The position numbers and the translations under genes were made by a program. This document shows, piece by piece, positions 49 through 16,475 of a DNA stretch of 16,475 nt. Under the pieces are notes generated by a model. That model was given only the letters and a program-made list of their open reading frames with translations. It searched no databases and was not told the origin of the DNA. Position 1 is the stretch's first letter. Each line of letters opens with the position of its first letter. Where the stretch lies: positions 1 through 16,475 of the forward strand of contig CADFQU010000004.1 in assembly GCA_902836505.1 (NCBI GenBank), read 5' to 3'. The DNA is from Streptococcaceae bacterium. Its GTDB lineage: Bacteria > Bacillota > Bacilli > Lactobacillales > Streptococcaceae.

Positions 49-73
49 AATATTTTCTAGATTCCTTTCATAT

Positions 74-90: not shown

Positions 91-104
91 TTTCTTAAAA
101 TTTA

Positions 105-124
105 CTGCCCACTTCTGCCCACTT
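105..124. repeat. Tandem 10-bp direct repeats, likely integrase arm-binding sites
   Basis: CTGCCCACTT occurs at 105-114 and directly again at 115-124. The repeat lies between the integrase stop codon and the putative core site. Phage- and Tn916-type integrases bind direct repeats of this kind through their N-terminal arm-binding domain. The 10-bp period puts both copies on the same DNA face. Confidence 0.55.
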
Positions 125-128
125 TTTT

Positions 129-1280
129 TTAAAAATCGTCAAAAGCGTTAGCAACTTCCTTCTGTTGAGATGGAAATAAATGTGAATAAACATTAATTGT
201 TGTGTTGATGGAACTATGTCCAAGTCGTTTCATCAGTGTAAAGAAGATAAAGTCTTTCCCCTCACCTTTTCTTAATCCCTGACTTATCAAGAATGCTGCA
301 TGTGAATGTCGAAAATCATGATTTCGAATTAACTTTAAATGCTCAGGTAAACGTTTTTTCAATGATTTTCTAAAATTATTTACGTTTGGTGCAGTCATTG
401 GTTCACCGGAAAATTGAAAAATCTGTAGGTCATCAGTTGAATCAGTGAGTTTGGACAATCTGTTTGCTTGAGTAAATTTCCAGACTCTCAATTCATTAAC
501 AAAAGCCTTATGGATATAAATCCTTCTGTTAGACTGAGTTGTTTTTACTGTTCCAATATGAGTTTTTCCATTACGGTAATATGCAGATTTATGAATTCTG
601 ATGCATCCTTCTTCGAGAAAAACATCATTCCAGGTTAGTGCAAGAGCCTCACCCATGCGAATTCCAGTATACATAAGAGTACGGTAAAGTAGTTGGAAAG
701 AGTACTCATTTTTTTCAAAATAGGTATCAAATTCTTTGAATTGTTCGGGAGTGTAGTAAGACATTTCCTTGTGTTTATCTGGTAATCTACGTATAGAAGA
801 ACAAGGGTTGTCTTTTCTAAATCCTTTTGAAATAGCTATATCAAATAACTTATGAACAAAAATCATTTGTTGATTGATATGCTTTGCTGATAGTGTACCT
901 CCTTTTACGCTTGGTTGCTTTATTAACCAATCTCGATATTTTTTGATATCCTGAGTAGTTACTAAAGCCATATCAGCTTTTTCAAAGAACCGTGATATAT
1001 ATTGATTGTAGTATGATTGTTGAGTATCTACAGTACCTTTTTTATTTCCTCTAAGTTTATCTTCTTCTTGTAGCAAAGTATAGAGGGTCGAGATAGAAAC
1101 TGTTTTAGTAGTTTGTAACTGATTTAAATGGTGGATACGGTAATCTGCTTCGTAATCTTTTGCTTCTCGTTTTGTTGGGAAATTGGCTTTACGATGACGT
1201 ACACGTTTTCCTGTAAGAGGACTAATACCATCACTAATATCGACTTGCCATAGACCATCTTTTTGTTTAATTACTGTCAT
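129..1280 (-). CDS. int: ICE tyrosine recombinase/integrase
   Basis: A 383-residue phage/Tn916-type integrase that would catalyse ICE integration at, and excision from, the site upstream of ebfC. The N-terminal part (about 1-55) looks like an AP2-like arm-binding domain (KDGLWQVDIS then RVRHRKANFPTKREA). It is followed by a SAM-like core-binding domain (about 60-165) and the catalytic domain. The catalytic residues are all visible: R208 (TGIRMGEAL), K246 (TVKTTQSNRR), H321-x-x-R324 (NHDFRHSHA), H355 (RLGHSS) and the nucleophile Y365 (INVYSHLF). The start at 1280 has an AAGGAGAAC ribosome binding site, and the ATG overlaps the stop of the upstream DUF3173 gene (ATGA), suggesting translational coupling. 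Length and all key residues are normal, so the enzyme is probably active. No clear terminator separates it from ebfC, 80 bases downstream on the same strand. Confidence 0.93.
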   Translation of the reverse strand: MTVIKQKDGLWQVDISDGISPLTGKRVRHRKANFPTKREAKDYEADYRIHHLNQLQTTKTVSISTLYTLLQEEDKLRGNKKGTVDTQQSYYNQYISRFFEKADMALVTTQDIKKYRDWLIKQPSVKGGTLSAKHINQQMIFVHKLFDIAISKGFRKDNPCSSIRRLPDKHKEMSYYTPEQFKEFDTYFEKNEYSFQLLYRTLMYTGIRMGEALALTWNDVFLEEGCIRIHKSAYYRNGKTHIGTVKTTQSNRRIYIHKAFVNELRVWKFTQANRLSKLTDSTDDLQIFQFSGEPMTAPNVNNFRKSLKKRLPEHLKLIRNHDFRHSHAAFLISQGLRKGEGKDFIFFTLMKRLGHSSINTTINVYSHLFPSQQKEVANAFDDF

Positions 1281-1531: not shown

Positions 1532-1564
1532 TTGAGTCCTCCGTTTTTATCGTAATTGCTTATA

Positions 1565-2677: not shown

Positions 2678-2693
2678 CGACTCTCCTTTCTAC

Positions 2694-2918
2694 TTAATGT
2701 CTGATATAAGCTGTAAATAGAACAGTCCCAAAGCGCCATTTAGCGTCTAAGACGACGGAATGAGCTTTCGTTTGTGCAATGATCTGGTCTTTGTCTTTTT
2801 CTGAGACTGGAAATAAAAGAAGGAAATCGACGGAGCGTTTCCCTTCTTGGTAGGCCTTAAAAAGTGTCTCTTCAAGCATTCTTGGAAAGGCTGTTCTTGA
2901 GCGTATTTTAGTATTCAT
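2694..2918 (-). CDS. Small conserved ICE protein of unknown function (74 aa)
   Basis: A 74-residue basic protein without a membrane segment or recognisable motif. The start at 2918 has a GAGGAGAAT ribosome binding site that overlaps the end of the VirB6-like gene. The next gene (wall hydrolase) begins 16 bases past its stop. Its tight packing between two essential transfer genes, with an intact frame and good translation signals, argues that it is real and co-expressed. ICESt3-type elements are known to carry small unassigned genes at this place. I cannot assign a function. Confidence 0.75.
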   Translation of the reverse strand: MNTKIRSRTAFPRMLEETLFKAYQEGKRSVDFLLLFPVSEKDKDQIIAQTKAHSVVLDAKWRFGTVLFTAYIRH

Positions 2919-2919
2919 T

Positions 2920-4800: not shown

Positions 4801-4811
4801 CAGTTCACCTC

Positions 4812-7316
4812 CTAACTAGCGTATTTATTTTCGAGACTTGAAGAGACTGTTGCTTTCATTGGTTTTAGAAGCATGTCAATATCCTCAAAGAGATTATGGA
4901 CGGAAATCATATTAAGATTACCGTAGACATCGTAGTAAAGGCACTGACCAGAAATCATATTATCAATCCATTCGAGGTTACTTTCAGTGACTTCGAGATT
5001 GACGTGTCTGAGAATATCTTCACGTTCAGATTTTTCATAGAAGGCAAAGATGGTCCCAAATCCAGTCGTGTCATCGTCATTTTCTGCATCATGGACGGAT
5101 TGTGTAATTAGTGCCAAGGTATTGTTTTTGGAGCGTCCAATACGTCTCATATTTTTGATAACGGCTTTTCCTTCTGCGGACTTCATAAGAATCCAAGCTT
5201 CGTCAAAGAACTCAATGGTATCTTCATTTTCATTGCGTTCTCCAAAGTGGGTACAAAAGGCCCCAAGCGCAAACATGAGAGCAATGGAGTTTCGTTCGTG
5301 GTCTGAAATCTTTGTAGAGTCATCTTTTGGAAGCTTGAGGTTGTTGACTTCTAGGATAGTCACCCGTGATTCATAGTTAAGCCCTGAGGTTGTGCCATCT
5401 GAGAAAGCGAGTTCCAAGATGGAGTTTGTCACAATGGACGTCAAGTAGCGACCCACTGAGGCAATTTCAGATGAGGAAGCCTGTCTTAAGGCTTCTAGGA
5501 CATGTTTAAAGCCGACGTTTTCACCAGCTACTCGACGTTCTACGATAGCATTGATGGCTTCTGTGATGGCTGTTTTCTGGTCCATCGTTACATCATCGAC
5601 AGCTTGTAGTAGAAACTCAAGCATGTTCTTTGCGACCTCTACAGCTTGTTCCTTATCAAGAACTACAATGGGATCTAGGACTCCGTGGTTTGATGGTAGT
5701 GAGCTGTCTAGTGTCACAAAGTTAAAGTTGTCAATCTGTTTTTTGCGTTCAGGGTAGCGTCGTGCAAATTCAGGGGAATTGATTACCTCTTGGTAGTGGT
5801 TTCTGAGTTCTCGTTTGGGGTCAATATAGAGGGTTTTGACATTTTGTAAAGCCACACTTAAAAAGATAATCTGAGCGAGGAAAGATTTTCCTTGTCCTGT
5901 CGCACCCGTAATAATGATATGTGGGTTCTTGGTAATCTTTCCAGCGATATCTTCTTTGTTTCCGACTGTGGCATTGTAGAGGACGATATTTTTAGAGGAA
6001 TCAATAGCTTTAGCGATAGTGTCCCAACGACCTGTCCAGTTGTCCACTCGTCCAATATACCAACCGATACGGTTTCCTGAGGTCGTATTGGTAAAGGGCA
6101 TGAGTTCTGAAAACCCACGGGCTGTGACCATATGTGTCCAGGTGCGAGTTTTCTTTTGGAGGTTTTCTCCGTAGAGTAGGGCTTGAAAGAGGTATGGGCC
6201 ATCTTGCGAAGCTTCACTGATTTCAACGCCCATATCATCAAAATAGTTGAGAACTACTTGTCGTCTTTGACGAAGTTGATTGACACTAGAAGCAGAGACA
6301 ATTAGATAGGCTCCATATTCAATGATATCTTCCTTGTTTCCGACTTTCTTCATCAGGTCTTTTAGAGAGATAGAGCCCATGATGATTTCATCTTGTTGGA
6401 CGGTGTCTGTATTTTCAGCTTCTTCCATGATGTTTCGATAACGGGTATTGGAACGTCCCATTCTCCCCTTAATTTTGTTGGTATCAATGAATTCTGCTTT
6501 GATGCGTAGTTCTACGGGAAAGTTCAAGCGTTGGACAAATTCGCCTAGGTGAAAGCCGTTGAATTGCACGGGAAACTTTCCAACAGGAAGAATAGTCACA
6601 AAAGAGGAACCATAAGGACTTTCGAGCTTAAGGAAGCCTCCTTTTAGGACTTTAATCAGGGTGTCTGTGATATTAAATTGGGAGCGATTAGCAAGGACCT
6701 CCTTTTTGTAGTGGGGAATATAGCGGAGGTATTGCATCCTCTGGTAGTAAAAGAGTTCGTCATTGGTCAGACGTTTGGCACGTAGGACAGAGAAGGCTTG
6801 GAAAATAGTGAATTCGTCACTTCTGTAATCGTCATACCATGTGGGACTCAATACGTATTCGTAGCCAAGACCTTTTGCGATTTTCTCCGAGAACTCATTA
6901 AAACTCTCATAGGCTAAGTCTTTCACCGTTGCCCCGTGATTTTGTTTACGTAAGGTCACTCCCACGACCCAGTCAAACTGATAAGGAATTTCCATTTCAT
7001 CCGTGAGACGGTCAACCGTGTAAAGAAGGAGTTCTTCTCCCAGATCACGGCTATCATCTGCCAATGCTTCTGAAAAGTCCCTCATTTTCTCTTCTAAGAG
7101 ATAATCTTTAGGAATGAGTGAAATCTCAAAGGACTTATTTTTCTGGAGCTTCTTTATCATTTGAGCAACTGTAATCTTGTGTTTGTCCTTTTTCTCTTCA
7201 TCTGTAATGGTAATGGGAGTATTGGGAATACGGTAATAGGCTACCACCGTTCGATCTTTTTTGATGGCTAGATTTTCATAGGTTTCCTTAATGGGATAGG
7301 TTAAGGTAATACTCAT
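4812..7316 (-). CDS. virB4: VirB4-like conjugation ATPase (Tn916 Orf16 / TcpF type)
   Basis: Read from ATG at 7316, the protein has 834 residues beginning MSITLTYPIKE. I prefer this start to an upstream in-frame one at 7355. A perfect AAGGAGG sits four bases before it, and the longer form would overlap the end of the TcpE gene. The N-terminal half is the VirB4 accessory domain. The C-terminal half is a RecA-like ATPase with Walker A GATGQGKS (about 471-478) and Walker B TIEFFDEAW (D705, E706), followed by an arginine-rich sensor segment (NMRRIGRSKNNTLALITQS). It would energise the assembly of the channel or DNA transfer at the membrane. The motifs are intact and the length is typical of the family, so it should be functional. 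Confidence 0.93.
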   Translation of the reverse strand: MSITLTYPIKETYENLAIKKDRTVVAYYRIPNTPITITDEEKKDKHKITVAQMIKKLQKNKSFEISLIPKDYLLEEKMRDFSEALADDSRDLGEELLLYTVDRLTDEMEIPYQFDWVVGVTLRKQNHGATVKDLAYESFNEFSEKIAKGLGYEYVLSPTWYDDYRSDEFTIFQAFSVLRAKRLTNDELFYYQRMQYLRYIPHYKKEVLANRSQFNITDTLIKVLKGGFLKLESPYGSSFVTILPVGKFPVQFNGFHLGEFVQRLNFPVELRIKAEFIDTNKIKGRMGRSNTRYRNIMEEAENTDTVQQDEIIMGSISLKDLMKKVGNKEDIIEYGAYLIVSASSVNQLRQRRQVVLNYFDDMGVEISEASQDGPYLFQALLYGENLQKKTRTWTHMVTARGFSELMPFTNTTSGNRIGWYIGRVDNWTGRWDTIAKAIDSSKNIVLYNATVGNKEDIAGKITKNPHIIITGATGQGKSFLAQIIFLSVALQNVKTLYIDPKRELRNHYQEVINSPEFARRYPERKKQIDNFNFVTLDSSLPSNHGVLDPIVVLDKEQAVEVAKNMLEFLLQAVDDVTMDQKTAITEAINAIVERRVAGENVGFKHVLEALRQASSSEIASVGRYLTSIVTNSILELAFSDGTTSGLNYESRVTILEVNNLKLPKDDSTKISDHERNSIALMFALGAFCTHFGERNENEDTIEFFDEAWILMKSAEGKAVIKNMRRIGRSKNNTLALITQSVHDAENDDDTTGFGTIFAFYEKSEREDILRHVNLEVTESNLEWIDNMISGQCLYYDVYGNLNMISVHNLFEDIDMLLKPMKATVSSSLENKYAS

Positions 7317-7329
7317 AAGACCTCCTTTT

Positions 7330-7740
7330 CTATAGTTTTGTTTTTTCAAAGACAATTTCTTCTAATAGCTCTATTCGATCTTCATGGTAGATTGCTTTTT
7401 TATTGAGCTTGAAATCCCAGAAGTAAATCAGGTAGTCCCCAATAAAAACGTGCATCTTCTTACCGTGTGGCTCGTATTCGGTGTAGAATTTAGCAAGTTT
7501 ATAGGGGAGGTACCAGTAGAGCAGTAGTGAAATAGAGTGTGTGAGTTTTGCGAGGGGAATCAGGATGAATCCTCCAAAGAGCAACATGGCCACAAAAACA
7601 AAGGTAAAGACAATGAAAAAGGACAATTGCATCGGTGTCGCAAAGTACCAAAGGCGAGTCCCTTTTTTTGTCTTGATTTCCTGGATCCAATAGGGAGCGT
7701 TTAAGCCCTTACTGTAGTCATAGAGTCTTTCTTCAGTCAT
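7330..7740 (-). CDS. tcpE: TcpE family conjugation membrane protein (Tn916 Orf17 type)
   Basis: A 136-residue protein with two adjacent transmembrane segments (about 38-60 and 62-82) and a cytoplasmic C-terminal tail ending in acidic and basic residues. Sequence character (NAPYWIQEIKTKKGTRLWYFATP, then YKLAKFYTEYEPHGKKMHVFIGDYLIYF) fits the TcpE family, located immediately before VirB4 as in Tn916 and pCW3. TcpE is needed for efficient transfer in pCW3 and ICEBs1 (ConD/ConE neighbourhood). An AGGAC ribosome binding site precedes the start at 7740. It lies 14 bases upstream of the preferred VirB4 start and two bases after the TcpD-like gene. Confidence 0.85.
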   Translation of the reverse strand: MTEERLYDYSKGLNAPYWIQEIKTKKGTRLWYFATPMQLSFFIVFTFVFVAMLLFGGFILIPLAKLTHSISLLLYWYLPYKLAKFYTEYEPHGKKMHVFIGDYLIYFWDFKLNKKAIYHEDRIELLEEIVFEKTKL

Positions 7741-7742
7741 AC

Positions 7743-7967
7743 TTAAAGTCCTGAATCAATACCAAAGAGTCGTAGGAACCAGCCGACCACTTTTAGGATA
7801 TCTTGTCCTTTTGCGATTGAGACAATAACGGCATAGAAGCCAACGACTGAGAAGAGTTGAAGCCAAGAACTGTTTCGCCAAGCTTTAATAGCCAACAAAA
7901 CAGCGATAGCGGTGAGAATCCAAATCCCATCGCCTTGGAGGAAGGTGCGTAGATTGTCTGTATTCAT
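7743..7967 (-). CDS. TcpD-like small membrane protein
   Basis: A 74-residue protein with two transmembrane helices (about 14-29 and 34-53) and a short amphipathic C-terminus (VVGWFLRLFGIDSGL). Size, topology and location between the VirB8-like gene and TcpE match the TcpD family in related elements. Such proteins are small structural components of the transfer complex, possibly VirB2- or VirB3-like. A GGAGAAC ribosome binding site supports the start at 7967. The family is assigned mainly from topology and position, so the name is less certain than for its neighbours. Confidence 0.75.
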   Translation of the reverse strand: MNTDNLRTFLQGDGIWILTAIAVLLAIKAWRNSSWLQLFSVVGFYAVIVSIAKGQDILKVVGWFLRLFGIDSGL

Positions 7968-7976
7968 AGAGTTCTC

Positions 7977-8969
7977 CTAATCTTTATCGTTTGCGTAGTT
8001 GAGAGGAATGGTGTGTTCTAGTTTTGTGACATAGTAGCTCTTGTCTTTTTCTGAGAGGGTGAAGGTGAAGTTTTCAGAGTGTGTTGTTCCTCCCACCTCA
8101 AAGGTTGCCTGGACATAGGCTATGAGACCAACCTTATCTTTCTTAAGATAGGTATAGTCAATCGTTTTAAAGGTGGTATTGGCTACAATAGCAACGTTCT
8201 TGGCAATAAGGTTAAGGTTGTCTTGATTGGTAGTATAGTTGGTAAAGAAGACCTTGAGGAACTTTTCGACCTTCTTGTGTTGGTTATCTGAGACGTGGTC
8301 GTTGGCTGTGAGTTGGAGCTGATCGTCTTCGCTAAAGTGTCCAGCTTGTGAAGAGTCAATCGCTGAGAACCAAGGAAGTCCAGAAACGTAGTATTTCCCC
8401 TCTTTTTCATCAAAGGGAATATTAAATCCCGTTACCAGTTCTTTTTCCTCGGTGTCTTTGTCATGTTGGATTATTTCCTTGTATTTTACCTTGTAGGTAG
8501 CTACCTTACCTTCTACCGTGACTAATTGTGAGTAAAGTAGGGTGCTTGGGTTACGCACTTGACCTTGTGCTTTGACGTCTGGAACGAAGTTATAGAAACT
8601 GTTGAGGTGTTCGACTTGTGCTTGTTGTTTATCTCCTTCTTGTGGGAGGGTGAAGTAGGCATAGACATAGTCATTGAGGTAATACTGGAGCTTGTAGTCA
8701 TACTTACGATTAGCCACAGGCTGTGCTTTCTTATTTTGAGTTACTTCCACTTGTTTTTGTAGTGTTGCCACTTTTCTTGAGAGTGTTATGGCACGTATGG
8801 AACCCATAAGACCAACAAAAAGGAGGAAAGCAATTCCTCCGATAACAGCTATATTGACGGTCTTTTTTGTAGTGACTTTTAGCTTTGGTGGCCCACCTTT
8901 TTTCTCCACCTTTTTAAAATTTGAGAGGTATTCCCTTGCTTTTAGTAGGGATCGTTTAGCTTTTATCAT
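7977..8969 (-). CDS. tcpC: TcpC family conjugation protein, VirB8-like (Tn916 Orf13 type)
   Basis: A 330-residue bitopic protein: a basic cytoplasmic N-terminus (about 1-36), one membrane span (about 38-60, VNIAVIGGIAFLLFVGLMGSI), then an extracellular region of about 265 residues. In pCW3 TcpC the latter folds as two VirB8/NTF2-like domains; two such units can be perceived here (about 95-210 and 230-325, the second containing TYLKKDKVGLIAYVQATFEV). It is a structural component that recruits other channel proteins. The start at 8969 has an AAGGAGGACC ribosome binding site. It ends nine bases before the TcpD-like gene. Confidence 0.88.
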   Translation of the reverse strand: MIKAKRSLLKAREYLSNFKKVEKKGGPPKLKVTTKKTVNIAVIGGIAFLLFVGLMGSIRAITLSRKVATLQKQVEVTQNKKAQPVANRKYDYKLQYYLNDYVYAYFTLPQEGDKQQAQVEHLNSFYNFVPDVKAQGQVRNPSTLLYSQLVTVEGKVATYKVKYKEIIQHDKDTEEKELVTGFNIPFDEKEGKYYVSGLPWFSAIDSSQAGHFSEDDQLQLTANDHVSDNQHKKVEKFLKVFFTNYTTNQDNLNLIAKNVAIVANTTFKTIDYTYLKKDKVGLIAYVQATFEVGGTTHSENFTFTLSEKDKSYYVTKLEHTIPLNYANDKD

Positions 8970-8980
8970 AGGTCCTCCTT

Positions 8981-9538
8981 CTAGAGACTAGCGAGTTCAA
9001 TGAGTTTAGACCCTTTAGCGTAGAGTCGCTTATTAGCCTTTTCAATCTCACTGTTGATGTAGTAGTAGCCTCGTAACTCATTATGGAGTTGTTCGACTAA
9101 CTCAGGTTTTAGGTCTTTGGCTTCTTCTTTTTTAAGAAGAGCATTTAGTTCTCCAGCTTTAGTCCAAGCTTGTTTGTGGTCTTTCTTTTTGAGTAATTCT
9201 CCGAGTTCGTTGGTAACTTGTCCAACTTTGGTTTCAAAAATTGTTTTAGTAGCCATATCAATTTCCTTTCTAAAGGTTTCGTGATTATTTTTGATGGTCT
9301 GTTGAATATAAGCAATGAGAGAGGGACGCATCCGTTTATTGAGACTCAGAACCTGACCGTCTAGGGTGAAACAGGCGTGTTCATAGTCGTAGAAGCCCCT
9401 ATCATCTGGAGGTTTTTCGGTACATCTTCCAGCACATTCATAGTAGAAGTCCTTGCCTTTTCTAAGGAGGATATACATGTTCCAAAACTCTTGATCGGGA
9501 AGAAGGAGGAAGTCTGCTTGATAGATTTTCTTGAGCAT
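8981..9538 (-). CDS. Conserved ICE protein of unknown function (185 aa)
   Basis: A 185-residue soluble protein. The first half has aromatic-rich segments and a CAGRC motif (residues about 35-39) that might bind a metal, although with only three Cys in that half this is speculative. The second half (about 95-185) is Lys/Glu/Leu-rich and probably helical or coiled-coil. No membrane span. The ribosome binding site before 9538 is weak (AGAGG), and the start is five bases after the preceding gene, so translational coupling is likely. Genes of this size occur between mobT and the VirB8-like gene in ICESt3-type elements, but I know no function. Confidence 0.75.
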   Translation of the reverse strand: MLKKIYQADFLLLPDQEFWNMYILLRKGKDFYYECAGRCTEKPPDDRGFYDYEHACFTLDGQVLSLNKRMRPSLIAYIQQTIKNNHETFRKEIDMATKTIFETKVGQVTNELGELLKKKDHKQAWTKAGELNALLKKEEAKDLKPELVEQLHNELRGYYYINSEIEKANKRLYAKGSKLIELASL

Positions 9539-9542
9539 GACT

Positions 9543-9773
9543 TTAGGCCTCTAGGAGGTCCTCGTAACCAAGTGCTTGATAAATAAAGTCTGTATCAAAC
9601 CAAAGCCAATCATTGATTTGAGTGTCGGTAGGGGTGTTGCCTGAAAAGAGATCTTCACAGATGGTGGTTAGGGTATCTATACCACCACGTTCACGGACAG
9701 TGTTTAAGGTACTCAGTCCACCAGACCAGGCTTTAAAGTTGTTTAGTGAGTTGATTTCGACTTTGTATTCCAT
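9543..9773 (-). CDS. Small acidic ICE protein of unknown function (76 aa)
   Basis: From ATG at 9773 the product is 76 residues, starting MEYKVEINSLNNFKAWSGG. This start has an AAAGGAAAT ribosome binding site and avoids overlap with mobT; a longer in-frame reading begins at 9797 within the end of mobT. The protein is acidic and rich in Trp, Thr and Asp (TDTQINDWLWFDTDFIYQALGYEDLLEA), with no membrane span. Small acidic proteins next to relaxase genes are common in Tn916 relatives; some others in that position (for example ArdA) mimic DNA, but nothing here is enough to claim that. Function unknown. Confidence 0.72.
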   Translation of the reverse strand: MEYKVEINSLNNFKAWSGGLSTLNTVRERGGIDTLTTICEDLFSGNTPTDTQINDWLWFDTDFIYQALGYEDLLEA

Positions 9774-9786
9774 AGGGATTTCCTTT

Positions 9787-11019
9787 CTAGTGTTCATAGT
9801 GTTTGTTGGTTTTGAGGAGTCTTAAGATAGCCTCCCCACGATCGGTGATTTCACCGCTATTTTGAATCATCTTCATGTATTCTGTTTGCATGATTTTGTC
9901 TGCTTCAGAAACGAGTGCAAGAGAATTTGCGACTTGGTAGGTTAACCAGCGAATGGTTCGTTCGATACTGTAGGGTTGTGGACTGGTTGAGAGTTTTAGG
10001 GGTTCAACCCCTCCAAAGAGCCTTTGCCACTTTTCATAGGGCTTATATGCTCCAAAACGGGTGACACCATCATAGACTTGGATTTCCTTGTTCACGATAC
10101 CTCTTGCGATTTCTCCGAGGTCCACACCGTTGATGTATTCTTCCACAACCCCTTGGGCTTTCTGGTCTGAGAAGCGTAGTTCGTAGCGGTTCCAGATACC
10201 AAAAATCTCCAAGGATTCTTCCAAGGAGATATTTTCCATACGGGCGATTTCGTATCGCTTTTCGTAAAAGTTGAAGTAGAGCTGGCTTTGACGACTACCA
10301 AAGTAAAGGGAAAGCCCGTGATTGGCTTCCATATCGTCATTATCGGTGAAGGAGCCCCCACCTGTGATGTTCCATTTTCGAATGGTATCTAGGACAATTT
10401 CTTTGGCGTAGAGCTTATCAATGAGCTTGGGGATCTGGATGTGCTCCTCCTCGTGCCCATAGCCTTTATAGAGCTCGTCTAGGGCGATATCAAGGCGTTT
10501 TACCCTGACATCTTCATAGGCATAGAGAATATTTTGAAGAAAGGTTTGCCAAGAGATCCCCTTGTGTTCTAAGAGGAGTTCCATCTCCCGACAGCCTTGA
10601 CCAGAGAGTTGGAGACACGTTTGGTAGTCATTAGTCGCAGACTTATCAAAGAAATCGAAGATCCAAATGTTTCCCCGTTGCCACAAGTGGGTATAATTCA
10701 TGAGCCGTGTTTCTTGGTCAGTAAATTCGCTTAAGCGACAAAAAAGAAAGTTCTCACAGAAAGCTTCTAAATCCCGTAGACTAGGGAAGGTTAGTCGCAA
10801 GTAGTCGATGTGAGCCTTGAGATTGTTTTTGTGACACTCTTGATAATAACCGAGTTTTTCTTTGAGTTCTCGAAACTTGTCAATAGTGAGTCCTCTTTCT
10901 CCTGATTCATAGGAGCGGTAAGTTCTTATCGGTAAGCTAACTGCTTGTGCAAAGGCTTTTTGGCTGAGGCCTGTTTGTTTTCTGAAGTTTTTGATCTGAA
11001 AGGGACTCATTTTAGTCAT
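9787..11019 (-). CDS. mobT: MobT-family conjugative relaxase (Rep_trans fold) with N-terminal HTH
   Basis: A 410-residue relaxase that nicks the ICE oriT and pilots the strand to the recipient. Residues about 6-60 form an XRE-type helix-turn-helix (QIKNFRKQTGLSQKAFAQAV, then YRSYESGERGLT). The Rep_trans/replication initiation factor domain follows. Key features are the acidic motif VKRLDIALDE (D177, D181) and FGSRQSQLYFNFYEKRYE with candidate catalytic Y252. I recall Tyr252 as the proposed nucleophile of ICESt3 MobT, and the position coincides. A third conserved stretch is WNRYELRF (about 276-283). The GGAGGTG ribosome binding site lies about ten bases before ATG 11019. A spurious four-codon ORF (ATG at 11023) overlaps this start. 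The relaxase is encoded next to its oriT, but its usual upstream partner, the coupling protein gene, has been displaced by the nested element. Confidence 0.92.
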   Translation of the reverse strand: MTKMSPFQIKNFRKQTGLSQKAFAQAVSLPIRTYRSYESGERGLTIDKFRELKEKLGYYQECHKNNLKAHIDYLRLTFPSLRDLEAFCENFLFCRLSEFTDQETRLMNYTHLWQRGNIWIFDFFDKSATNDYQTCLQLSGQGCREMELLLEHKGISWQTFLQNILYAYEDVRVKRLDIALDELYKGYGHEEEHIQIPKLIDKLYAKEIVLDTIRKWNITGGGSFTDNDDMEANHGLSLYFGSRQSQLYFNFYEKRYEIARMENISLEESLEIFGIWNRYELRFSDQKAQGVVEEYINGVDLGEIARGIVNKEIQVYDGVTRFGAYKPYEKWQRLFGGVEPLKLSTSPQPYSIERTIRWLTYQVANSLALVSEADKIMQTEYMKMIQNSGEITDRGEAILRLLKTNKHYEH

Positions 11020-11039
11020 TCATGGGAACACCTCCTTTT

Positions 11040-11166
11040 GATTAAGTGACACACTTTTTGGACCAAAGTGACACACTTTCTAAATCTTGAAATCCCAACT
11101 CCCACAAGGAATGAGGAGGGGTGGACGTGGCACTTTGGCCAAATGTAACCCCCCTATTAGAAATAG
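11040..11166 (-). other. oriT: ICE origin of transfer (oriT), interrupted
   Basis: The region between mobT and the nested integrase holds palindromic repeats (11044-11079 and 11130-11145) and, on the minus strand, TTTCTAATAG followed by GGGGGGTTAC (plus 11145-11163). This resembles Tn916/ICEBs1-type nick regions, where CTAACAG or CTAATAG precedes a G-run that pairs with an upstream C-run. Here the upstream C-run is missing: the minus strand reads CCCACTATTT instead. That points to the nested element's edge lying inside the oriT hairpin. The innermost CTATT-TCT-AATAG (11154-11166) still forms a 5-bp stem. Confidence 0.72.
11044..11079. repeat. Pair of palindromes AAGTG-ACA-CACTT in oriT
   Basis: AGTGACACACTTT occurs at 11045-11057 and 11067-11079, a 22-bp period, about two helical turns. 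Each copy is itself a palindrome, AAGTG(ACA)CACTT. Between them CACTTT-ttgga-CCAAAGTG forms an overlapping inverted repeat, echoed at 11131-11145 by CACTTTGGCCAAATG. Likely binding sites for the MobT HTH or for an oriT accessory factor; they lie directly upstream of the mobT ribosome binding site, so autoregulation is also possible. Confidence 0.6.
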
Positions 11167-11176
11167 TGGGAAAATA

Positions 11177-11207
11177 TGAAAAAAAGCCCTTTAAAATGAG
11201 GCTTTTG
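11177..11207 (-). terminator. Rho-independent terminator after IME integrase
   Basis: On the minus strand AAAAGCC (plus 11200-11206) pairs perfectly with GGCTTTT (plus 11182-11188) around an 11-base loop, followed by TTT. It lies about 50 bases downstream of the IME integrase stop and would stop readthrough from the IME into the ICE relaxase operon. Confidence 0.65.
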
Positions 11208-11224
11208 AGGTGTATTTCCTTTTT

Positions 11225-11245
11225 TTTGGTAGCTAATTTGGTAGC
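11225..11245. repeat. Direct repeats TTTGGTAGC, likely IME integrase arm sites
   Basis: TTTGGTAGC occurs at 11225-11233 and 11237-11245, a 12-bp period, immediately downstream of the integrase stop and between the gene and the element edge. Paired repeats of this type are common arm-type integrase binding sites. Confidence 0.5.
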
Positions 11246-11254
11246 CAAAGATAT

Positions 11255-12394
11255 TTAGTCGATAAAATCACTTGATATGAGATTGAGTTTATCTGTTAAT
11301 TCGGAATCAGCGTTTGGGTATAAATGACTATAAATGCTAAGTGTAGTTTTGACATCAGAATGACCTAATCGTCTTTGAATATATAGAGCATTTACATTAT
11401 ATTCATTAATAAGTAATGACGCATGGGAGTGTCTTAAACCTTTTGGTTGAATGTATTTAACTCCTGCACGTTTAGAATATTTTAGAATCTGGTCTCTAAT
11501 ACTACGTTTACGATATGGATTTCCATCAAGTGATAGAATGAATGGTATCTTGTCAACTTTTGCTTGTCGTTCTTTCCATTCCTTAAGTACATTTAGAGTA
11601 TTATCATCAAGGCCAATGGTTCGTCTGGAGCTTTCAGTTTTTAGTTTGTTACGCCGAACCCAATTTTCACGGTTTATGTACTGTAAGTTGTGATTGATTG
11701 CTAGAGTTTTCTTTTCAAAATCTACATCTTCCCAATAAAGAGCAGTCGCCTCATTTACACGCATTCCTGTAAAATAATAAAGCCAAAAAAGTGTATAAAC
11801 AAAGTGCTCAAAATAACTTTTTTTATCAAGTGATTGTATTACTTTTTGGAACTCGTCTTTTGTCCAAAAATCTATATGTTTTTTTATGATTGGAATTGGA
11901 CTGATATTACTTGTGGGAATTTCATGAAAAATCAACCCATATTTTTTTGCAGTTTTCAAAACTTGATTAAGCAATGTCATCTTGTTTCTTGCATATGAAT
12001 TTGAATATCTCTCTAATAAACCATTTCTATAATTAATCACATCATAAGTAGTAATTTCTCTAGGTTTTTTCTTACCAAAGTATTGAATAAATTCATTGAA
12101 TATAACTTGACGTCTGTGTTCGAGATCCGGACTTGTTGTAGCGTAATAATTTGGCATAAAAACTTCTTCCATAAACTGCTTAAAAGTCCATTGAGTATGC
12201 TTAATTCCTCCTTTTTGTTGTATCTTATTCAAGGCTCTTGTACGTGCTTCAAAGGCTTCTTTTGCGGTTTGAAAACCACGTCTACGTTCTTGATAAGGTT
12301 TACCAGTAGCTAGGTCAACTCCAGCTTTAAAATAATAAGTATATTTGCCAGTCTTATCATCTTTCGTAACACCGGTATATCTAGTTTTTGACAT
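11255..12394 (-). CDS. int: IME tyrosine recombinase/integrase
   Basis: From ATG at 12394 the protein has 379 residues (MSKTRYTGVTKDDKTGKYTYYF). This start has a GGAGG ribosome binding site six bases upstream; a reading six codons longer (12412) lacks one. Domains: AP2-like arm-binding region (about 1-50), SAM-like core-binding domain (about 65-165) and catalytic domain. Catalytic candidates are R212 (TGMRVNEAT), K252 (NKLKTESSRR), K318-x-x-R321 (PKGLRHSHAS, with Lys replacing the more common His), H345 (RLGHSD) and Y355 (LSIYSHLYP). It is clearly diverged from the ICE integrase and so should recognise a different site, inferred to be the oriT nick region about 100 bases downstream. It overlaps the upstream DUF3173 gene by 14 bases. 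Confidence 0.93.
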   Translation of the reverse strand: MSKTRYTGVTKDDKTGKYTYYFKAGVDLATGKPYQERRRGFQTAKEAFEARTRALNKIQQKGGIKHTQWTFKQFMEEVFMPNYYATTSPDLEHRRQVIFNEFIQYFGKKKPREITTYDVINYRNGLLERYSNSYARNKMTLLNQVLKTAKKYGLIFHEIPTSNISPIPIIKKHIDFWTKDEFQKVIQSLDKKSYFEHFVYTLFWLYYFTGMRVNEATALYWEDVDFEKKTLAINHNLQYINRENWVRRNKLKTESSRRTIGLDDNTLNVLKEWKERQAKVDKIPFILSLDGNPYRKRSIRDQILKYSKRAGVKYIQPKGLRHSHASLLINEYNVNALYIQRRLGHSDVKTTLSIYSHLYPNADSELTDKLNLISSDFID

Positions 12395-12584
12395 GTAGTT
12401 CCTCCAATCCAAGTATCTCTGCTACAACTGATACTGGAACTGTTCCAAGTCCTTTATTATTATAAAAATCGAATCCACGTTCAACCATAATATGTTTTGC
12501 TTGCCGTAAAATATTATAAGCAGTCCATTTTGAAAAACCTAAGTCCATAATTTCTTGTACTGTCATAGTTAGCTTATCGTTCAT
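12381..12584 (-). CDS. DUF3173 family protein of the IME, excisionase-like
   Basis: A 67-residue protein, MTVQEIMDLGFSKWTAYNIL then FDFYNNKGLGTVPVSVVAEILG, with the same helix-turn-helix and wing pattern as the ICE copy at 1277-1531 but clearly divergent. It lies directly upstream of, and overlapping, the IME integrase gene. This position and fold suggest a recombination directionality role. The start at 12584 has an AAAGGAGAA ribosome binding site and overlaps the stop of the Rep gene (ATGA), so rep, this gene and int form one coupled operon. Confidence 0.8.
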   Translation of the reverse strand: MNDKLTMTVQEIMDLGFSKWTAYNILRQAKHIMVERGFDFYNNKGLGTVPVSVVAEILGLEELHVKN

Positions 12585-13573
12585 AAGTCAGTTTCTCCTT
12601 TACTAGTAAGTTCTAGGAATTCTCCTATTAATTGTTTGAGTTCATTATTTAATCGTGGGGTTTGTTCTTTAAGTGCATCTTGTAGTTCTAAAGAAAATGA
12701 GCTACTATCAAATGCTTTTAGGTGTTTTCTAAGTCTGGTCTTTTTCACTCTAATAGTGTTAGGTTTCAGGTAGGGGAATAATTCGGGTAAGAGTGCTGGT
12801 TCATGAAGAAAAATATAGGCAAATGCTTTGCTATCATCTGGAACACTTGAAAGACTAAAAAAGCTAAAATTCTCCAATCGTTTAGAAATCTCTGAAATGG
12901 TTTCCTCGTTTATAGCCTTTGTTCGTAGTTGGAACTCTAACCGCCACCAAAAGGGTTTGATTTCTATATCTAATTTATCAGCTCTTTTGTGACTTAGTAC
13001 CTCTATATTCTTATCGTACAAACGTACTTGAACGTTACTACCACTTGCCCCCCAGTATTTACTTTCTATATTGCCCCCTCTACCGTAGAATATTTTATGA
13101 CTAACCCCTCCTTTGATATGTTGTAAAAAAACTATTTCTGGCCTATTAAAGATATCAAAAGCAAGATCTAATCGTGACAGTCTAATTTCTAATCGATTTA
13201 ATCGAGCGTAATTCATAATCTGCCTCCACACTTGTAAACCCTCAAATTCTTTTAGTGAGTTTGGGTTGAAGTCTAGGCGTATGACTTGATAACCACCATA
13301 ATCAGAAAGTTGGAAGAAAATTAGATTTATACTATCTTCGTTTATCGTTTTATAAAGAGTAAAATAGTCTTCTTTTAGATTTTCTTGAATACTAAATTCT
13401 TGAATTATATTATCGAGTGATTTTCGTAATTCACGAAATATTCGTCTAAGTGATTGGTTCTCACTATCAAAGATTACTGTTAATCGGTCAATGCTGATAT
13501 AAATAGATTTTTCTAGTTTTGATAAATCTACTTGACTTTGATATTCTCGTAGAGATTGAATGGTATTTTTCAA
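12581..13573 (-). CDS. rep: Rep_trans-type replication initiator, possibly also the IME relaxase
   Basis: A 330-residue protein of the pT181-RepC/MobT superfamily (replication initiation factor) without an N-terminal HTH. Motifs: YISIDRLTVIF (about 25-35), LSRLDLAFD (D136, D140), YWGASGSNVQVRLYDKNIE with candidate nucleophile Y186, and FWWRLEFQLR (about 208-217). These align in order with the corresponding motifs of MobT in this window. The start codon is TTG at 13571-13573, seven bases after a GGAGG. A weak start may limit Rep dosage. Such proteins nick an origin for rolling-circle replication. In an IME without another relaxase it could also start transfer, which is inference. It begins about 70 bases from a three-hairpin origin candidate. 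Confidence 0.85.
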   Translation of the reverse strand: MKNTIQSLREYQSQVDLSKLEKSIYISIDRLTVIFDSENQSLRRIFRELRKSLDNIIQEFSIQENLKEDYFTLYKTINEDSINLIFFQLSDYGGYQVIRLDFNPNSLKEFEGLQVWRQIMNYARLNRLEIRLSRLDLAFDIFNRPEIVFLQHIKGGVSHKIFYGRGGNIESKYWGASGSNVQVRLYDKNIEVLSHKRADKLDIEIKPFWWRLEFQLRTKAINEETISEISKRLENFSFFSLSSVPDDSKAFAYIFLHEPALLPELFPYLKPNTIRVKKTRLRKHLKAFDSSSFSLELQDALKEQTPRLNNELKQLIGEFLELTSKGETDL

Positions 13574-13645
13574 TGTAACGCCTCCTTTCTATGCTTAAAA
13601 TCTGCGTAATTCGTTGCTACTATTGATTTTTGCCGACGACTCGTT

Positions 13646-13782
13646 ACTTAGGGCGTTGCCTTAAGTGTATCTGATTGCTGGCTGTTAGAAACGCCAGTTT
13701 TTATGTTAGAGATTGGGAGAACTTCGAGCTTCGGGCGCTCTGCCTTCGGCCCGCGCCCTTGCACTTGTCTCCCAATCTCTAA
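13646..13782. other. Candidate rolling-circle origin with three consecutive hairpins
   Basis: Three inverted repeats lie between the rep start and the 60-aa gene. The first has arms ACTTAGGGC and GCCTTAAGT (13646-13666) with one wobble pair. The second is CTGGC(10)GCCAG (13678-13697), whose minus-strand loop carries TTTCTAACAG, like pT181-type nick sites and the ICE oriT motif. The third is a 77-base compound cruciform (13706-13782). TGTTAGA is repeated at 13683 and 13704. pT181-family double-strand origins likewise have several inverted repeats with the nick in a hairpin loop. It could equally be the IME oriT. Confidence 0.6.
13706..13782. repeat. Long compound inverted repeat with GC-rich core
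   Basis: A perfect 15-bp inverted repeat (TTAGAGATTGGGAGA at 13706-13720 and its complement at 13768-13782) encloses GGGCGC (13733-13738) paired with GCGCCC (13753-13758), which encloses GCC-TTC-GGC (13742-13750). The core is strongly GC-rich in an AT-rich element. It lacks a U-tract, so it is more likely a single-strand or double-strand origin than a terminator. Confidence 0.7.
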
Positions 13783-13798
13783 TTTATTAGTTTTTAAA

Positions 13799-13981
13799 CT
13801 ACCCAAAATACTTGTCTAGAAACTGCGAGAGCAATTCAAGTGCTCTAAGCTCAATTTCTTCATTTCGAATATCTTCAAATTCATTATCATTTACTTGAAT
13901 ATATTCTTCTAAACTAGGCGAATAAAAAGAATGAGTATTGTTAATTTTGTTGTTTTGAAATGTAAATTGTGTTGATGTCAT
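13799..13981 (-). CDS. Hypothetical 60-aa acidic protein of the IME
   Basis: A 60-residue acidic protein, MTSTQFTFQNNKINNTHSFY followed by a Glu-rich helical segment (about 33-56, ending LLSQFLDKYFG). No membrane span or known motif was recognised. The start at 13981 has a GAGGAT ribosome binding site. It is the first gene of the leftward IME operon and lies between the origin region and the repressor operators, so it may be a replication or copy-number accessory. That role is only a guess from position. Confidence 0.6.
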   Translation of the reverse strand: MTSTQFTFQNNKINNTHSFYSPSLEEYIQVNDNEFEDIRNEEIELRALELLSQFLDKYFG

Positions 13982-14025
13982 AATATCCTCAATCTAGCCA
14001 TATTTCGCTTCTTATGGACTTTTTA

Positions 14026-14041
14026 TTACCATTTTGGTATA
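14026..14041. promoter_or_regulatory. Operator-like palindrome O1 with adjacent -10 box
   Basis: TACCATTTTGGTA is a near-palindrome identical in its core (ACCATTTTGGT) to the two sites in front of the repressor gene. A plus-strand TATAAT (14038-14043) overlaps its right edge. It lies 47 bases upstream of the start of the leftward 60-aa gene, so the repressor may also control that operon. Confidence 0.5.
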
Positions 14042-14065
14042 ATTGTATTGGTTTTAAACGAAAGC

Positions 14066-14102
14066 CTCAGAACGCTTTGCAGAGCTTTCTGGAGTGTTTT
14101 TG
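14066..14102 (+). terminator. Terminator-like hairpin in the divergent region
   Basis: CTC-AGAA-c-GCT (14066-14076) pairs with AGC-t-TTCT-g-GAG (14083-14094), giving about ten pairs with a mismatch and a bulge, followed by TTTTT at 14097-14101. With the -10 box at 14038-14043 it would delimit a transcript of about 50 bases. Confidence 0.35.
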
Positions 14103-14150
14103 CATATTCATAAGCTAACTAGTATTACCTATTTTGTATGCTTTGTTTTT

Positions 14151-14198
14151 ATATAACCATTTTGGTTATATAGGTATAATACAACCATTTTGGTTATA
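14151..14198 (+). promoter_or_regulatory. Repressor promoter flanked by two operators
   Basis: O2 is a palindrome with 9-bp arms, ATATAACCA (14151-14159) and TGGTTATAT (14163-14171). O3 repeats it imperfectly, with AACCATTTTGGTT at 14183-14195. A consensus -10 box, TATAAT (14175-14180), lies between them; O2 covers the -35 region, where no good -35 hexamer is seen. This layout predicts autoregulation by the HTH protein encoded 30 bases downstream. Confidence 0.65.
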
Positions 14199-14228
14199 AG
14201 TCAATAGAAAAACGAAAGGAATTTTAAA

Positions 14229-14531
14229 ATGTTAAAAGACAATATAAAAAAAGCCCGACTAGATGCAGGACTTACTCAATTAGAAGTTGCTGAAAAGTTA
14301 GGTGTGGCTCAAGCTCAATATGCTAGGTGGGAGAACGGGGGGAGAAATCCAAAGGATGATACAGTAGAGAAACTAGCTGAAATCTTAAATACTTCTTTTG
14401 AGATTCTTAAAGGACGAGATGATGGCCTTGAGGAGATAGTTAGTTTATTGAGAGAGCATGAATTAACAGAGGAAGATAAAAACCAAATTATTAGTCTTTT
14501 ACAGGACTTCTTAATAAACAAGTCAAAATAA
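14229..14531 (+). CDS. Cro/cI-type (XRE) transcriptional repressor of the IME
   Basis: A 100-residue protein with an N-terminal HTH_3 domain (about 5-60): IKKARLDAGLTQLEVAEKLG, then AQAQYARWENGGRNPKDDTVEKLAEIL. A short helical C-terminal part (about 68-100, HELTEEDKNQIISLLQDFLINKSK) could dimerise. It lacks a LexA-like autocleavage domain, so it is not a classical SOS-sensing cI. The start at 14229 has an AAAGGA ribosome binding site. It is transcribed away from the replication-integration operon and is preceded by palindromic operators. The likely role is control of its own gene and of the leftward operon, similar to a phage or ICE switch. Confidence 0.85.
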   Translation: MLKDNIKKARLDAGLTQLEVAEKLGVAQAQYARWENGGRNPKDDTVEKLAEILNTSFEILKGRDDGLEEIVSLLREHELTEEDKNQIISLLQDFLINKSK

Positions 14532-14553
14532 TGCATTGGTTGGAGGATTAAAA

Positions 14554-14676
14554 GTAAATAACATCCGAGAACAAAAAAAGCAAGCTAAAGCATTTATTAA
14601 ACGCTGGGAAAACCGTGGCAATGAAAGACAAGACAGTCAGTCATTTTGGCTTGATTTGCTCCAATCTGTTTATTGA
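14554..14676 (+). pseudogene. N-terminal remnant of a DNA methyltransferase (restriction-modification type)
   Basis: An open frame of 40 codons reads NNIREQKKQAKAFIKRWENR, continuing GNERQDSQSFWLDLLQSVY, then stops. This resembles the N-terminus of large class I SAM-dependent DNA methyltransferases of streptococcal and other Gram-positive restriction-modification systems, which continue after this point for hundreds of residues. The expected start codon position reads GTA (14554-14556) behind a good GGAGG at 14542-14546. It suggests a lost GTG start, so translation is unlikely. No other part of the methyltransferase is visible, so the body of the gene has been deleted, with a junction near 14674. 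The identification is from memory of the family N-terminus, without a search. Confidence 0.55.
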
Positions 14677-14740
14677 ATTGATAAATGAGAAGATTAAAGC
14701 GTTGTAGGAAAATAGATATTTTATGAGGAGGCGAGGCAAC

Positions 14741-14857
14741 TTGAAAGAATATATTGTAAGTTTGGAAAAAGAAATAATCAAATCTGAATTTGAGGGGGTG
14801 TTTTTATGTCAACAATTAAAATTGAAAACCTTACTTTCTCATATTATGGCTATGTAA
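14741..14857 (+). CDS. Possible leader ORF overlapping the ABC-F start
   Basis: From TTG at 14741, ten bases after GAGGAGG, a 38-codon ORF reads MKEYIVSLEKEIIKSEFEGV and continues across the ABC-F start (14806) in another frame, stopping at 14857. An ATG at 14723 gives a longer frame but has no ribosome binding site. Short translated leaders often control ABC-F and other ribosome-protection genes, with drug-stalled ribosomes changing downstream expression. Here the overlap would make the two starts translationally linked. It may instead be a fragment of a lost gene; coding character is not decisive. Confidence 0.35.
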   Translation: MKEYIVSLEKEIIKSEFEGVFLCQQLKLKTLLSHIMAM

Positions 14858-16284
14858 AACCTGTATTTGAAAATGTATCATTTTCATTTGATACGAACTG
14901 GAAAACAGGGCTAATAGGAAGAAACGGAATTGGGAAATCAACACTATTTAAGCTGCTTCTAAACCAAGAAGTTTATAAGGGGAAAATCAGCAAAAGTGTT
15001 GACTTTATTAAATTCCCACCCAATTTAAGTGATACTTCAAAATTAGGGATTGAGTTATATAGAGAACTAATATCAGATGAGGAAGAATGGAAATTATTTA
15101 GAGAACTTCATTTGCTAAATGTAGATGAGAACCTTGTTTACAGAAAGTTTGAAACACTATCCAAAGGAGAACAAACAAAAATCCTTTTGGCTATTTTGTT
15201 TACAAGAGAAGATGGTTTTTTACTTATAGATGAACCAACAAACCATTTAGATATGGATGGAAGAAAAAATGTCAGTGAATATCTGAAAAGTAAAAAAGGT
15301 TTTTTGCTCATATCTCATGATAGAGATTTTTTAGACGGCTGTATCAATCATGTTATTTCTCTTAACAGGAATTCTATTGATGTTCAATCAGGAAATTTTA
15401 CATCTTGGTATGAAAACAAATTGATGAAAGACCAATTTGAAATTAGTGAATACGAGAAATTAAGAAAAGATATTAAACGATTAAAAGAAGCTGCAAGACA
15501 AAGTAAAACTTGGTCTGATAAAATTGAAAACACTAAAAATGGTGTGAAAGTATCAGGTGTAAAACCAGATAAGGGACATATAGGTCATCAGTCAGCCAAG
15601 ATGATGAAAAAATCAAAGAATTTGGAAAAGAGACAAAATAAGGCAATAGAAGAAAAACAAAATTTACTAAAAGATATTGAAACAAAGGAAAGTCTATCAT
15701 TGCATTCATTACATCATCATAAAAATCCTCTAATATCGGTTAGCAATTTATCATTATGCTATGGAGAAAGACAGATATTAAGCGATGTAAGTTTTGAGAT
15801 AAAACAAGGAGATATAGCAGCTATATATGGGGGTAATGGTAGCGGAAAATCAACCTTGATTAAAATTTTATTAGGTCTAAATAACGAGTATTCAGGTGAT
15901 GTAAAATTAGCAAATAATTTGAAAATATCGTATATTCCTCAAGATACATCAAATTTAACAGGTAGCTTAAATGAGTATATTCATCAGCAAGGTGTTGATG
16001 AAACATTGTGCAAAACAATTCTTAGAAAATTAGATTTTGCAAGAGAATTATTTGAAATGGATATGAAGAACTATAGCGATGGACAAAAAAAGAAAGTTTT
16101 AATTGCTGTAAGTTTGTCAAAGGCAGCTCATATATTTGTTTGGGATGAACCATTAAACTATATAGATGTAATATCAAGAATACAGATTGAGGAAATTATA
16201 AAAGAAGCAAATCCTACACTCATATTTGTGGAACACGATAAGCGATTTGTAGAGGATATAGCCAATAAAATCATACGATTATAA
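14806..16284 (+). CDS. Lsa-type ABC-F ribosome protection protein (probable lincosamide/streptogramin A/pleuromutilin resistance)
   Basis: A 492-residue cytosolic protein with two ABC ATPase domains and no membrane span. NBD1: Walker A GRNGIGKS (38-45), signature LSKGEQ (118-123), Walker B FLLIDEPTNHLD (138-149) and switch H171. NBD2: Walker A GGNGSGKS (342-349), signature YSDGQ (423-427), Walker B WDEPLNYID with E448, switch H477. A charged linker of about 95 residues (about 205-300) corresponds to the P-site tRNA interaction motif. As recalled, the NWKTGLIGRNG and VWDEPLNYIDV stretches are characteristic of the Lsa group. These proteins enter the ribosomal E site and dislodge drugs from the peptidyl transferase centre. 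The allele cannot be named and the phenotype is inferred. The start has a strong GAGGGGGTG ribosome binding site. It is cargo of the IME, preceded by a decayed gene and a possible leader ORF. Confidence 0.88.
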   Translation: MSTIKIENLTFSYYGYVKPVFENVSFSFDTNWKTGLIGRNGIGKSTLFKLLLNQEVYKGKISKSVDFIKFPPNLSDTSKLGIELYRELISDEEEWKLFRELHLLNVDENLVYRKFETLSKGEQTKILLAILFTREDGFLLIDEPTNHLDMDGRKNVSEYLKSKKGFLLISHDRDFLDGCINHVISLNRNSIDVQSGNFTSWYENKLMKDQFEISEYEKLRKDIKRLKEAARQSKTWSDKIENTKNGVKVSGVKPDKGHIGHQSAKMMKKSKNLEKRQNKAIEEKQNLLKDIETKESLSLHSLHHHKNPLISVSNLSLCYGERQILSDVSFEIKQGDIAAIYGGNGSGKSTLIKILLGLNNEYSGDVKLANNLKISYIPQDTSNLTGSLNEYIHQQGVDETLCKTILRKLDFARELFEMDMKNYSDGQKKKVLIAVSLSKAAHIFVWDEPLNYIDVISRIQIEEIIKEANPTLIFVEHDKRFVEDIANKIIRL

Positions 16285-16320
16285 ACTAAATTAGAACTCC
16301 CGGTTTGTCGAGATAATACC

Positions 16321-16351
16321 TTTTAACGATAACCTTATGCTATTGTTAAAA
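16321..16351. repeat. AT-rich inverted repeat between the ABC-F and TfoX-like genes
   Basis: TTTTAACGATA (16321-16331) and TATTGTTAAAA (16341-16351) pair over 11 bases with one G-T pair and a 9-base loop. There is no U-tract after it on the plus strand, so it is only a weak terminator candidate; an operator or a stem in the leader of the next gene is possible. Confidence 0.35.
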
Positions 16352-16387
16352 AGAATGAAATTCTAGTAATTAAGGGAGATAGAAAAA

Positions 16388-16475
16388 ATGGCTTCAAGTA
16401 AAGAATATTTAGATTTCATTTTAGAACAACTATCCGAGTTGGAAGAAATAACATATAGAACAATGATGGGCGAAT
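16388..16475 (+). CDS. TfoX/Sxy N-terminal domain protein, partial at window edge
   Basis: The first 29 codons read MASSKEYLDFILEQLSELEE then ITYRTMMGE. This is the typical start of short TfoX_N-domain proteins common in Firmicutes, where the next residues normally are a YxIYY stretch. In Gammaproteobacteria TfoX/Sxy acts on competence, but the role of the short Gram-positive homologues is not established. GGGAGA, seven bases before ATG 16388, gives a good ribosome binding site. It follows the ABC-F gene by about 100 bases on the same strand and is probably further IME cargo. The call rests on a short stretch. Confidence 0.65.
   Translation, partial: MASSKEYLDFILEQLSELEEITYRTMMGE

Follow-up and report, generated by a model that had tools for sequence, protein, structure and literature searches.

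An IME inserted in the conserved nic site of an ICE is an arrangement already in print (PMC5704250, PMC7563843). The elements concerned form the IME_oriT family of Libante et al. (2020; PMC7563843, citing Puymege 2015 and Douarre), which includes lsa(C)-carrying members, has an RDF named among its genes, and is recognized by a relaxase 91-100% identical to that of IME_SagLMG15084_oriT (references EPW57073.1 and EPW57075.1). Eight of 64 IME_oriT insertions lie outside mobile elements (PMC7563843). For one member, excision, mobilization in trans and a requirement for the relaxase have been published: ICESt3 transfer was similar without the IME, with it, and with a relaxase-less IME; the composite ICE::IME gave no cis-transfer, and transfer of the IME needed its own relaxase (PMC7563843). 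The conjugation module of ICESt3 is described as one operon, orfONMLK-oriT-orfJ...int (PMC7563491), and ICEs of this type have been reported to insert at the 5' end of ebfC (PMC7563843). A relaxase cut at CT'AA was reported for ICEBs1 and is conserved in the superfamily (PMC9371924).

The stretch of DNA analysed here, which we call the window, comprises 16,475 nucleotides of a Streptococcaceae bacterium (contig CADFQU010000004.1, positions 1 to 16,475). It provides a further IME_oriT with an Lsa-family gene, whose host ICE apparently lies at ebfC. The phenomenon has thus already been published, as an earlier note on this DNA had said of IMEs in oriT generally.

A divided nic hairpin in an ICESt3-family element

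The ICE in the window is a partial element of the ICESt3 family (Tn916 superfamily) on the minus strand. Its features, and the adjoining end of the IME, are as follows.

129..1280, minus strand: ICE tyrosine integrase (Pfam PF00589)
4812..7355, minus strand: ICE VirB4/TcpF-like ATPase (Pfam AAA_10; NCBIfam TcpF far under its cutoff)
9787..11019, minus strand: ICE MobT-type relaxase (HTH and Rep_trans; Pfam PF02486, PF01381), 410 aa, open
11044..11078, minus strand: predicted IR2-like MobT bind site, in the layout published for ICESt3 (PMC9371924)
11149..11163, minus strand: ICE nic hairpin of ICESt3 type, 3' half only, TTTCTAATAGGGGGG, with an empty counterpart in genome G001
11157..11174, minus strand: IME right end, TTTTCCCACTATTTCTAA, with the shared core within TATTTCTAA

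The best match of the ICE relaxase is NCBIfam MobT, at 163.5 bits against a cutoff of 600, and the protein is 90% identical to the copy at locus L007. At the start of the window a minus-strand frame encodes MMNMQNMMKQAQKLQK, which we take to be the N-terminus of EbfC/YbaB, and on this sequence the ICE appears to sit at the 5' end of ebfC.

On the minus strand the junction of ICE and IME reads TTTTCCCACTATTTCTAATAGGGGGGTTAC (within the window, TTTTCCCACTATTTCTAATAGGGGGG spans 11149-11174). Here TTTCTAATAG occupies 11163-11154 and the G-run 11154-11149, with the CT'AA cut predicted at 11159/11158. The pairing run of five or six C is missing from the junction, and only CCC, contributed by the IME end, precedes the core. 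Towards mobT, the IR2-like site consists of two 13-bp copies (11044-11056 and 11066-11078), 9 bp apart and 68 bp from the hairpin. The motif TTTCTAAYAGGGGG occurs once exactly in the window; taken alone it is weak evidence, because with up to two mismatches this 14-mer is found at least once in 45 of 200 shuffled windows (mean 0.25 per window). It is the context, not the motif, that carries the case for an oriT half, and in our sequence comparison it is decisive: the IME-free ICE of G001, the nearest genome in the comparison, is 96.3% identical to that of the window over 9,603 bp (window 1566-11164), and the alignment ends at the core.

The alignment excludes the ICE integrase module of the window (129-1531), so the ICE of G001 has another integrase module. 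Beyond the core, G001 continues with AACCCCCGATTTCTAATAGGGGGGTT, a complete hairpin that folds at -6.7 kcal/mol (z -2.5) when empty as here, and then with a 562-aa minus-strand ORF, a 473-aa part of which (L001) matches FtsK_SpoIIIE (Pfam). The oriT-tcpA arrangement for which the earlier note had suggested searching is therefore found in this relative, as a complete hairpin adjoined by an FtsK-like tcpA on the minus strand, and not in the window. An FtsK_SpoIIIE protein lies on the side of oriT away from mobT in G001 (L001), L004, L006 and L007, and intact hairpins of the form C5-N1..4-TCTAAYAG-G5 occur in 75 of 284 genomes of the genus of G001 (reversed control pattern: none among the matches listed).

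These observations bear out the earlier note in its main points: the nic hairpin in the oriT of the ICE has been interrupted, with the G-run half present and the C-run replaced by the IME end; the IME integrase module lies directly beyond the oriT half; and the insertion target is the relaxase cut site, at whose core the collinearity with G001 ends. The position it had given for a short repeat (11154-11166) was slightly off: the core shared by IME and target falls within TATTTCTAA at 11157-11165. We searched the window, which stops at 16475, for the other IME end and did not find it. The window's ICE resembles ICESt3 in its MobT-type relaxase with HTH, its CT'AA nic hairpin and an IR2 68 bp downstream, and its relative in G001 shows the order tcpA-oriT-mobT; the window's ICE differs in that its oriT is split by an IME.

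Gene content of the IME and its own CT'AA hairpin

From the junction to the end of the window, the IME has the following features.

11179..11206, minus strand: terminator-like hairpin with T-run, directed towards mobT, at the IME end
11255..12412, minus strand: IME tyrosine integrase (Pfam PF00589), with copies 93-99% identical
12381..12584, minus strand: DUF3173 protein (Pfam PF11372), putative excisionase/RDF of the IME
12581..13573, minus strand: IME relaxase, Rep_trans type (weak Pfam match, 22.3 bits, under the cutoff of 29.6)
13678..13697, minus strand: CT'AA hairpin CTGGCGTTTCTAACAGCCAG, ahead of the IME relaxase and a candidate for the IME's own oriT
14229..14531, plus strand: HTH regulator of the IME (Pfam HTH_3)
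14806..16284, plus strand: cargo gene for an ABC-F ribosomal protection protein of the Lsa family (NCBIfam ABCF_Lsa_all, 798.7 bits against a cutoff of 750)
16388..16475, plus strand: further cargo ORF, start only, cut by the window end

The IME relaxase is 91-98% identical to those of the 10 other IME_oriT copies to which the comparison was limited. The Lsa-family product is 93% identical to the L007 copy, the only solved structure matching it at E 1e-100 is Lsa(A) (7nhk), and the gene is predicted to be of antibiotic-resistance type. The ORF at 16388..16475 is presumably TfoX-like, judged by eye; this 29-aa piece had no match in Pfam and no counterpart in the compared loci when up to eight substitutions were allowed. 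A Pfam scan of the IME ORFs up to 16475 revealed no mating-pair domains, an Rfam search at gathering thresholds and a tRNA scan returned nothing, and PADLOC gave only generic matches to the HTH regulator.

Judged from its sequence, the insert is an IME of the published IME_oriT family. It shares with that family a Rep_trans relaxase, a tyrosine integrase, an RDF candidate, a regulator and Lsa-type cargo, as well as an insertion site within the nic stem-loop that precedes mobT in ICESt3-family ICEs, including those at ebfC; unlike the family, the window copy has an extra partial cargo ORF at 16388, and its far end lies beyond 16475. Like the IMEs in VirD4 genes of Tn5252-superfamily ICEs (PMC7563843), it is nested in a part that the host needs for transfer, but its target is a relaxase-cut DNA site and not a gene.

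The hairpin at 13678-13697 has the form (G)CTGGC-GTTTCTAACA-GCCAG(C), with CT'AA placed in the loop of a GC stem, and folds as DNA at -6.1 kcal/mol (z -4.4). The motif is found upstream of the relaxase in all 11 IME_oriT copies examined, window included. A relaxase search returned 43 places, comprising 10 IME_oriT copies, 26 places at 56-59% identity and seven others (an 85% fragment in G121, 44% in G179, and 33-35% in five genomes). Among the 26, the 22 examined (L098-L119) represent a widespread sister clade of Rep_trans relaxases, and every one has the same motif upstream at about equal distance; the stem is fully paired in 19, with one mismatch each in L102, L103 and L105. G001 has a sister-clade relaxase with the hairpin, yet no IME_oriT integrase match at E 1e-60; thus the hairpin travels with the relaxase and not with the IME_oriT integrase. 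CTAA-centred GC hairpins are expected 0.38 times per shuffled window, with at least one in 34 of 100 shuffles, so the case for an oriT rests on conservation and position. No compensatory stem changes were seen in the copies compared. We propose the hairpin as a candidate for the oriT of the IME itself; no description of it was found in the passages and legends of PMC7563843 consulted or in a literature search. A second, unrelated CTAA-centred GC hairpin, CAAGGGCTAAACCCTTG, lies at 74-90, at the ICE end by the presumed ebfC, and may be due to chance.

Recurrence in Streptococcus and the region of exchange

We searched the 284 genomes of the genus of G001 (Streptococcus), defining a copy by an integrase identity of at least 93%, and found 10 places in eight genomes. 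Nine correspond by position to L003-L011; the additional one is in G118, where the integrase match has one internal stop. Eight of the 10 copies are in oriT at the same phase (G272 twice, G007, G145, G118, G243, and G126 twice), G272 and G126 each having two IMEs in two ICEs. Both ends were seen for all eight, although both G126 copies are at contig ends (317 of 385 integrase residues) and we infer the pairing of their ends, which are on separate contigs. The remaining two copies lie outside oriT, between two glycoside hydrolase genes (G146/L003) and at a ferric-reductase-like gene (G188/L009); in this sample, then, the oriT hairpin is a preferred target and not a required one. The earlier note had called the IME dependent on ICE hosts, which stands for transfer, where an ICE was needed in the published work, and is too strong for insertion, given these two copies and the published 8 of 64 elsewhere.

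The mobT-side junction is CCCACTATWTCTAAYAGGGG in all eight oriT copies and in the window. The tcpA-side junction reads CCCCC(C)G, two or three bases, TCTAA, and then TTCCGAG in seven of the eight and CTCCGAG in L006. The junctions in these relatives are the two halves of hairpins that are intact elsewhere (for example CCCCCGTTTTCTAATAG, CCCCCGGTTTCTAACAG and CCCCCCGTATCTAACAG), and the C-run half anticipated at the far end was present in every oriT-located close relative (8/8). The 18 bases of the IME right end are identical in L004, L005, L006, L007, L008, L009, L014, L029 and L126, changed by one base (TATATCTAA) in L120 and L125, and altered in the core in L003.

We excluded from the copy count those right ends that have no close integrase, or just a part of one (G004/L014, L029, G083/L122, G186/L123 and G192/L124). 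Those reading CCCACTATTTCTAA without a full close integrase at L122, L123, L124 and L127 (G083, G186, G192 and G004) are probably decayed insertions, and at L014 (10747-11927) a decayed right end has as neighbours an IS1595-type transposase and a gene resembling those for aminoglycoside adenylyltransferases. At L008 (386-5270), one Tn916-type oriT insertion contains two left ends of an IME (400 and 5260), which point the same way and are approximately 4.9 kb apart, an arrangement that suggests a composite of two IMEs, one right end having been lost. A search of plasmids and phages for further insertions gave only integrases below 60% identity (150 plasmid and 3 phage records); the top plasmid match (Lactococcus, 52%) is adjoined by phage-defence and restriction genes. 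Weaker integrase matches (33-41% identity) also occur among the 284 genomes.

Two positions of TNTCTAAY distinguish the target from the IME, one being A or T and the other C or T. The first lies inside the exchange region, because its combinations vary among the junctions of L008, L120, L006 and G126 (Tn916-type targets); the second is placed inside by a single copy, L006. With both positions inside, the region contains CT'AA, and the integrase exchange would bracket the relaxase cut. We considered the junction hairpin as a conserved mimic for the relaxase and rejected this, as the fold is not kept across copies: the junction folds at -5.3 kcal/mol in both the window and L007 (z -3.8 and -3.9), and only at -2.3 kcal/mol (z about -1) in L005 and L006, which have C for T. 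An integrase arm that resembles the hairpin arm would account equally well for CCCACTA.

A separate observation concerns G129, a genome with no IME_oriT integrase match, in which a Tn916-type oriT (L128, position 1051, minus strand; also L088) has the IME-type loop GTTTCTAAC. It is the only such site among 43 exact Tn916-type sites in 42 of the 284 genomes, the other 42 having GTATCTAAC. The loop is possibly the scar of a departed IME; we did not retain this interpretation, as it is a single case that mutation can also explain. In viral contigs, no stretches had GTTT, against nine with GTAT.

Excision, transfer and the effect on the host ICE

In the reading in which we are highly confident, the nic hairpin of an ICESt3-family ICE has received an IME_oriT through the action of the IME's own tyrosine recombinase, and the IME would excise, be mobilized by the ICE and reinsert. 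The recombinase would swap strands across approximately TNTCTAAY, that is, CT'AA and its surroundings, with the hairpin arms probably serving as flanks; the C-arm would move with tcpA to the far end, and mobT would keep beside it the G-arm, the CT'AA and the bind site of MobT. The mobT-side anatomy, the phase, the natural empty site in a relative and the recurrence document this insertion; for excision, mobilization and reinsertion we draw largely on the published matings. Excision would restore the oriT and the operon of the ICE, whose coupling protein and secretion system the IME would then exploit with its own Rep_trans relaxase, which probably acts on the CT'AA hairpin at 13678-13697, before reinserting into an ICE oriT in the recipient. 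Excision of the IME before transfer is the simplest reading, because ICE transfer was unchanged and no cis-transfer was seen (PMC7563843).

The earlier note had also held the IME able to silence its host. At the IME end, the terminator-like hairpin folds at -7.3 to -9.2 kcal/mol as a short piece in 13 of 13 right ends; in a 75-nt piece L003, L006 and L014 pair otherwise, and a simple terminator scan of the window did not call it. If the window's ICE is transcribed like ICESt3, the IME would also split the operon. Silencing, in which oriT is kept divided and the IME terminator shuts off the mobT/T4SS operon at the ICE's cost, would be in keeping with the split hairpin, with the terminator-like hairpin between IME integrase and mobT, and with the description of the ICESt3 conjugation module as one operon (PMC7563491). 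We regard it as very unlikely, as the IME itself needs the ICE machinery and as, in the published matings with one family member, ICE transfer was unchanged with the IME, without it, or with a relaxase-less IME (PMC7563843), a result that largely refutes silencing for that member. It is quite unlikely that the composite is instead decayed, with an IME unable to excise and an oriT that stays split: the window has open frames for integrase, DUF3173 protein, relaxase and MobT, and many other copies carry a near-identical integrase and relaxase, even though the hairpin is physically split, the published composite showed no cis-transfer (PMC7563843), and decayed or remnant relatives exist (G004/L014, L029, G083/L122, G186/L123, G192/L124, and the stop in the G118 integrase match). 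The chance that there is no oriT half at all, and that the IME end lies near mobT by coincidence, is practically negligible; the bare 14-mer is expected 0.25 times per window at up to two mismatches, but such a likeness would not bring with it 9.6 kb of collinearity with an intact oriT, a bind site 68 bp away as in the published layout, and eight other copies at the same phase.

Insertion followed by excision remains the reading we prefer. A further reading, which we consider unlikely, is that MobT strand transfer between the two junctions frees an IME-free ICE with no prior excision by the integrase. CT'AA is kept at both IME junctions in the oriT copies, the MobT bind site is intact beside the mobT-side junction, and the window's IME end supplies CCC..CTATT, with which a weaker hairpin refolds round CT'AA at the junction. 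MobT would cut the mobT-side junction (5'-AAYAGGGGGG, mobT leading) and, after coming round, would act again at CT' in the tcpA-side junction, cutting and joining there. Strand transfer is catalysed by RelSt3 (PMC9371924), the relaxase has been credited with a Tn916-type chimera whose junction lies at nic (PMC7563491), and a published tool uses a Mob protein to recombine oriT copies (PMC4902927). Against this route, mobT expression behind the IME terminator may be poor, the two folded tcpA-side junctions do not form the hairpin, and prior excision accounts for the data on its own. In the passages and strain table of PMC7563843 consulted, no IME integrase deletion appears. If the route were real, the ICE would be transferred with a perfectly restored oriT and the IME left behind, which would explain why the published oriT-splitting IME neither slows its ICE nor travels with it.

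What the window contributes to a known family are small mechanistic additions, namely an exchange placed round CT'AA, an intact bind site, a hairpin of the IME's own and a terminator-like hairpin before mobT. The integrase exchange, the cut of the ICE relaxase and the candidate cut of the IME relaxase all share a CT'AA core, which provides a concrete candidate for the oriT of the IME and a possible route by which an ICE may shed its passenger during transfer.
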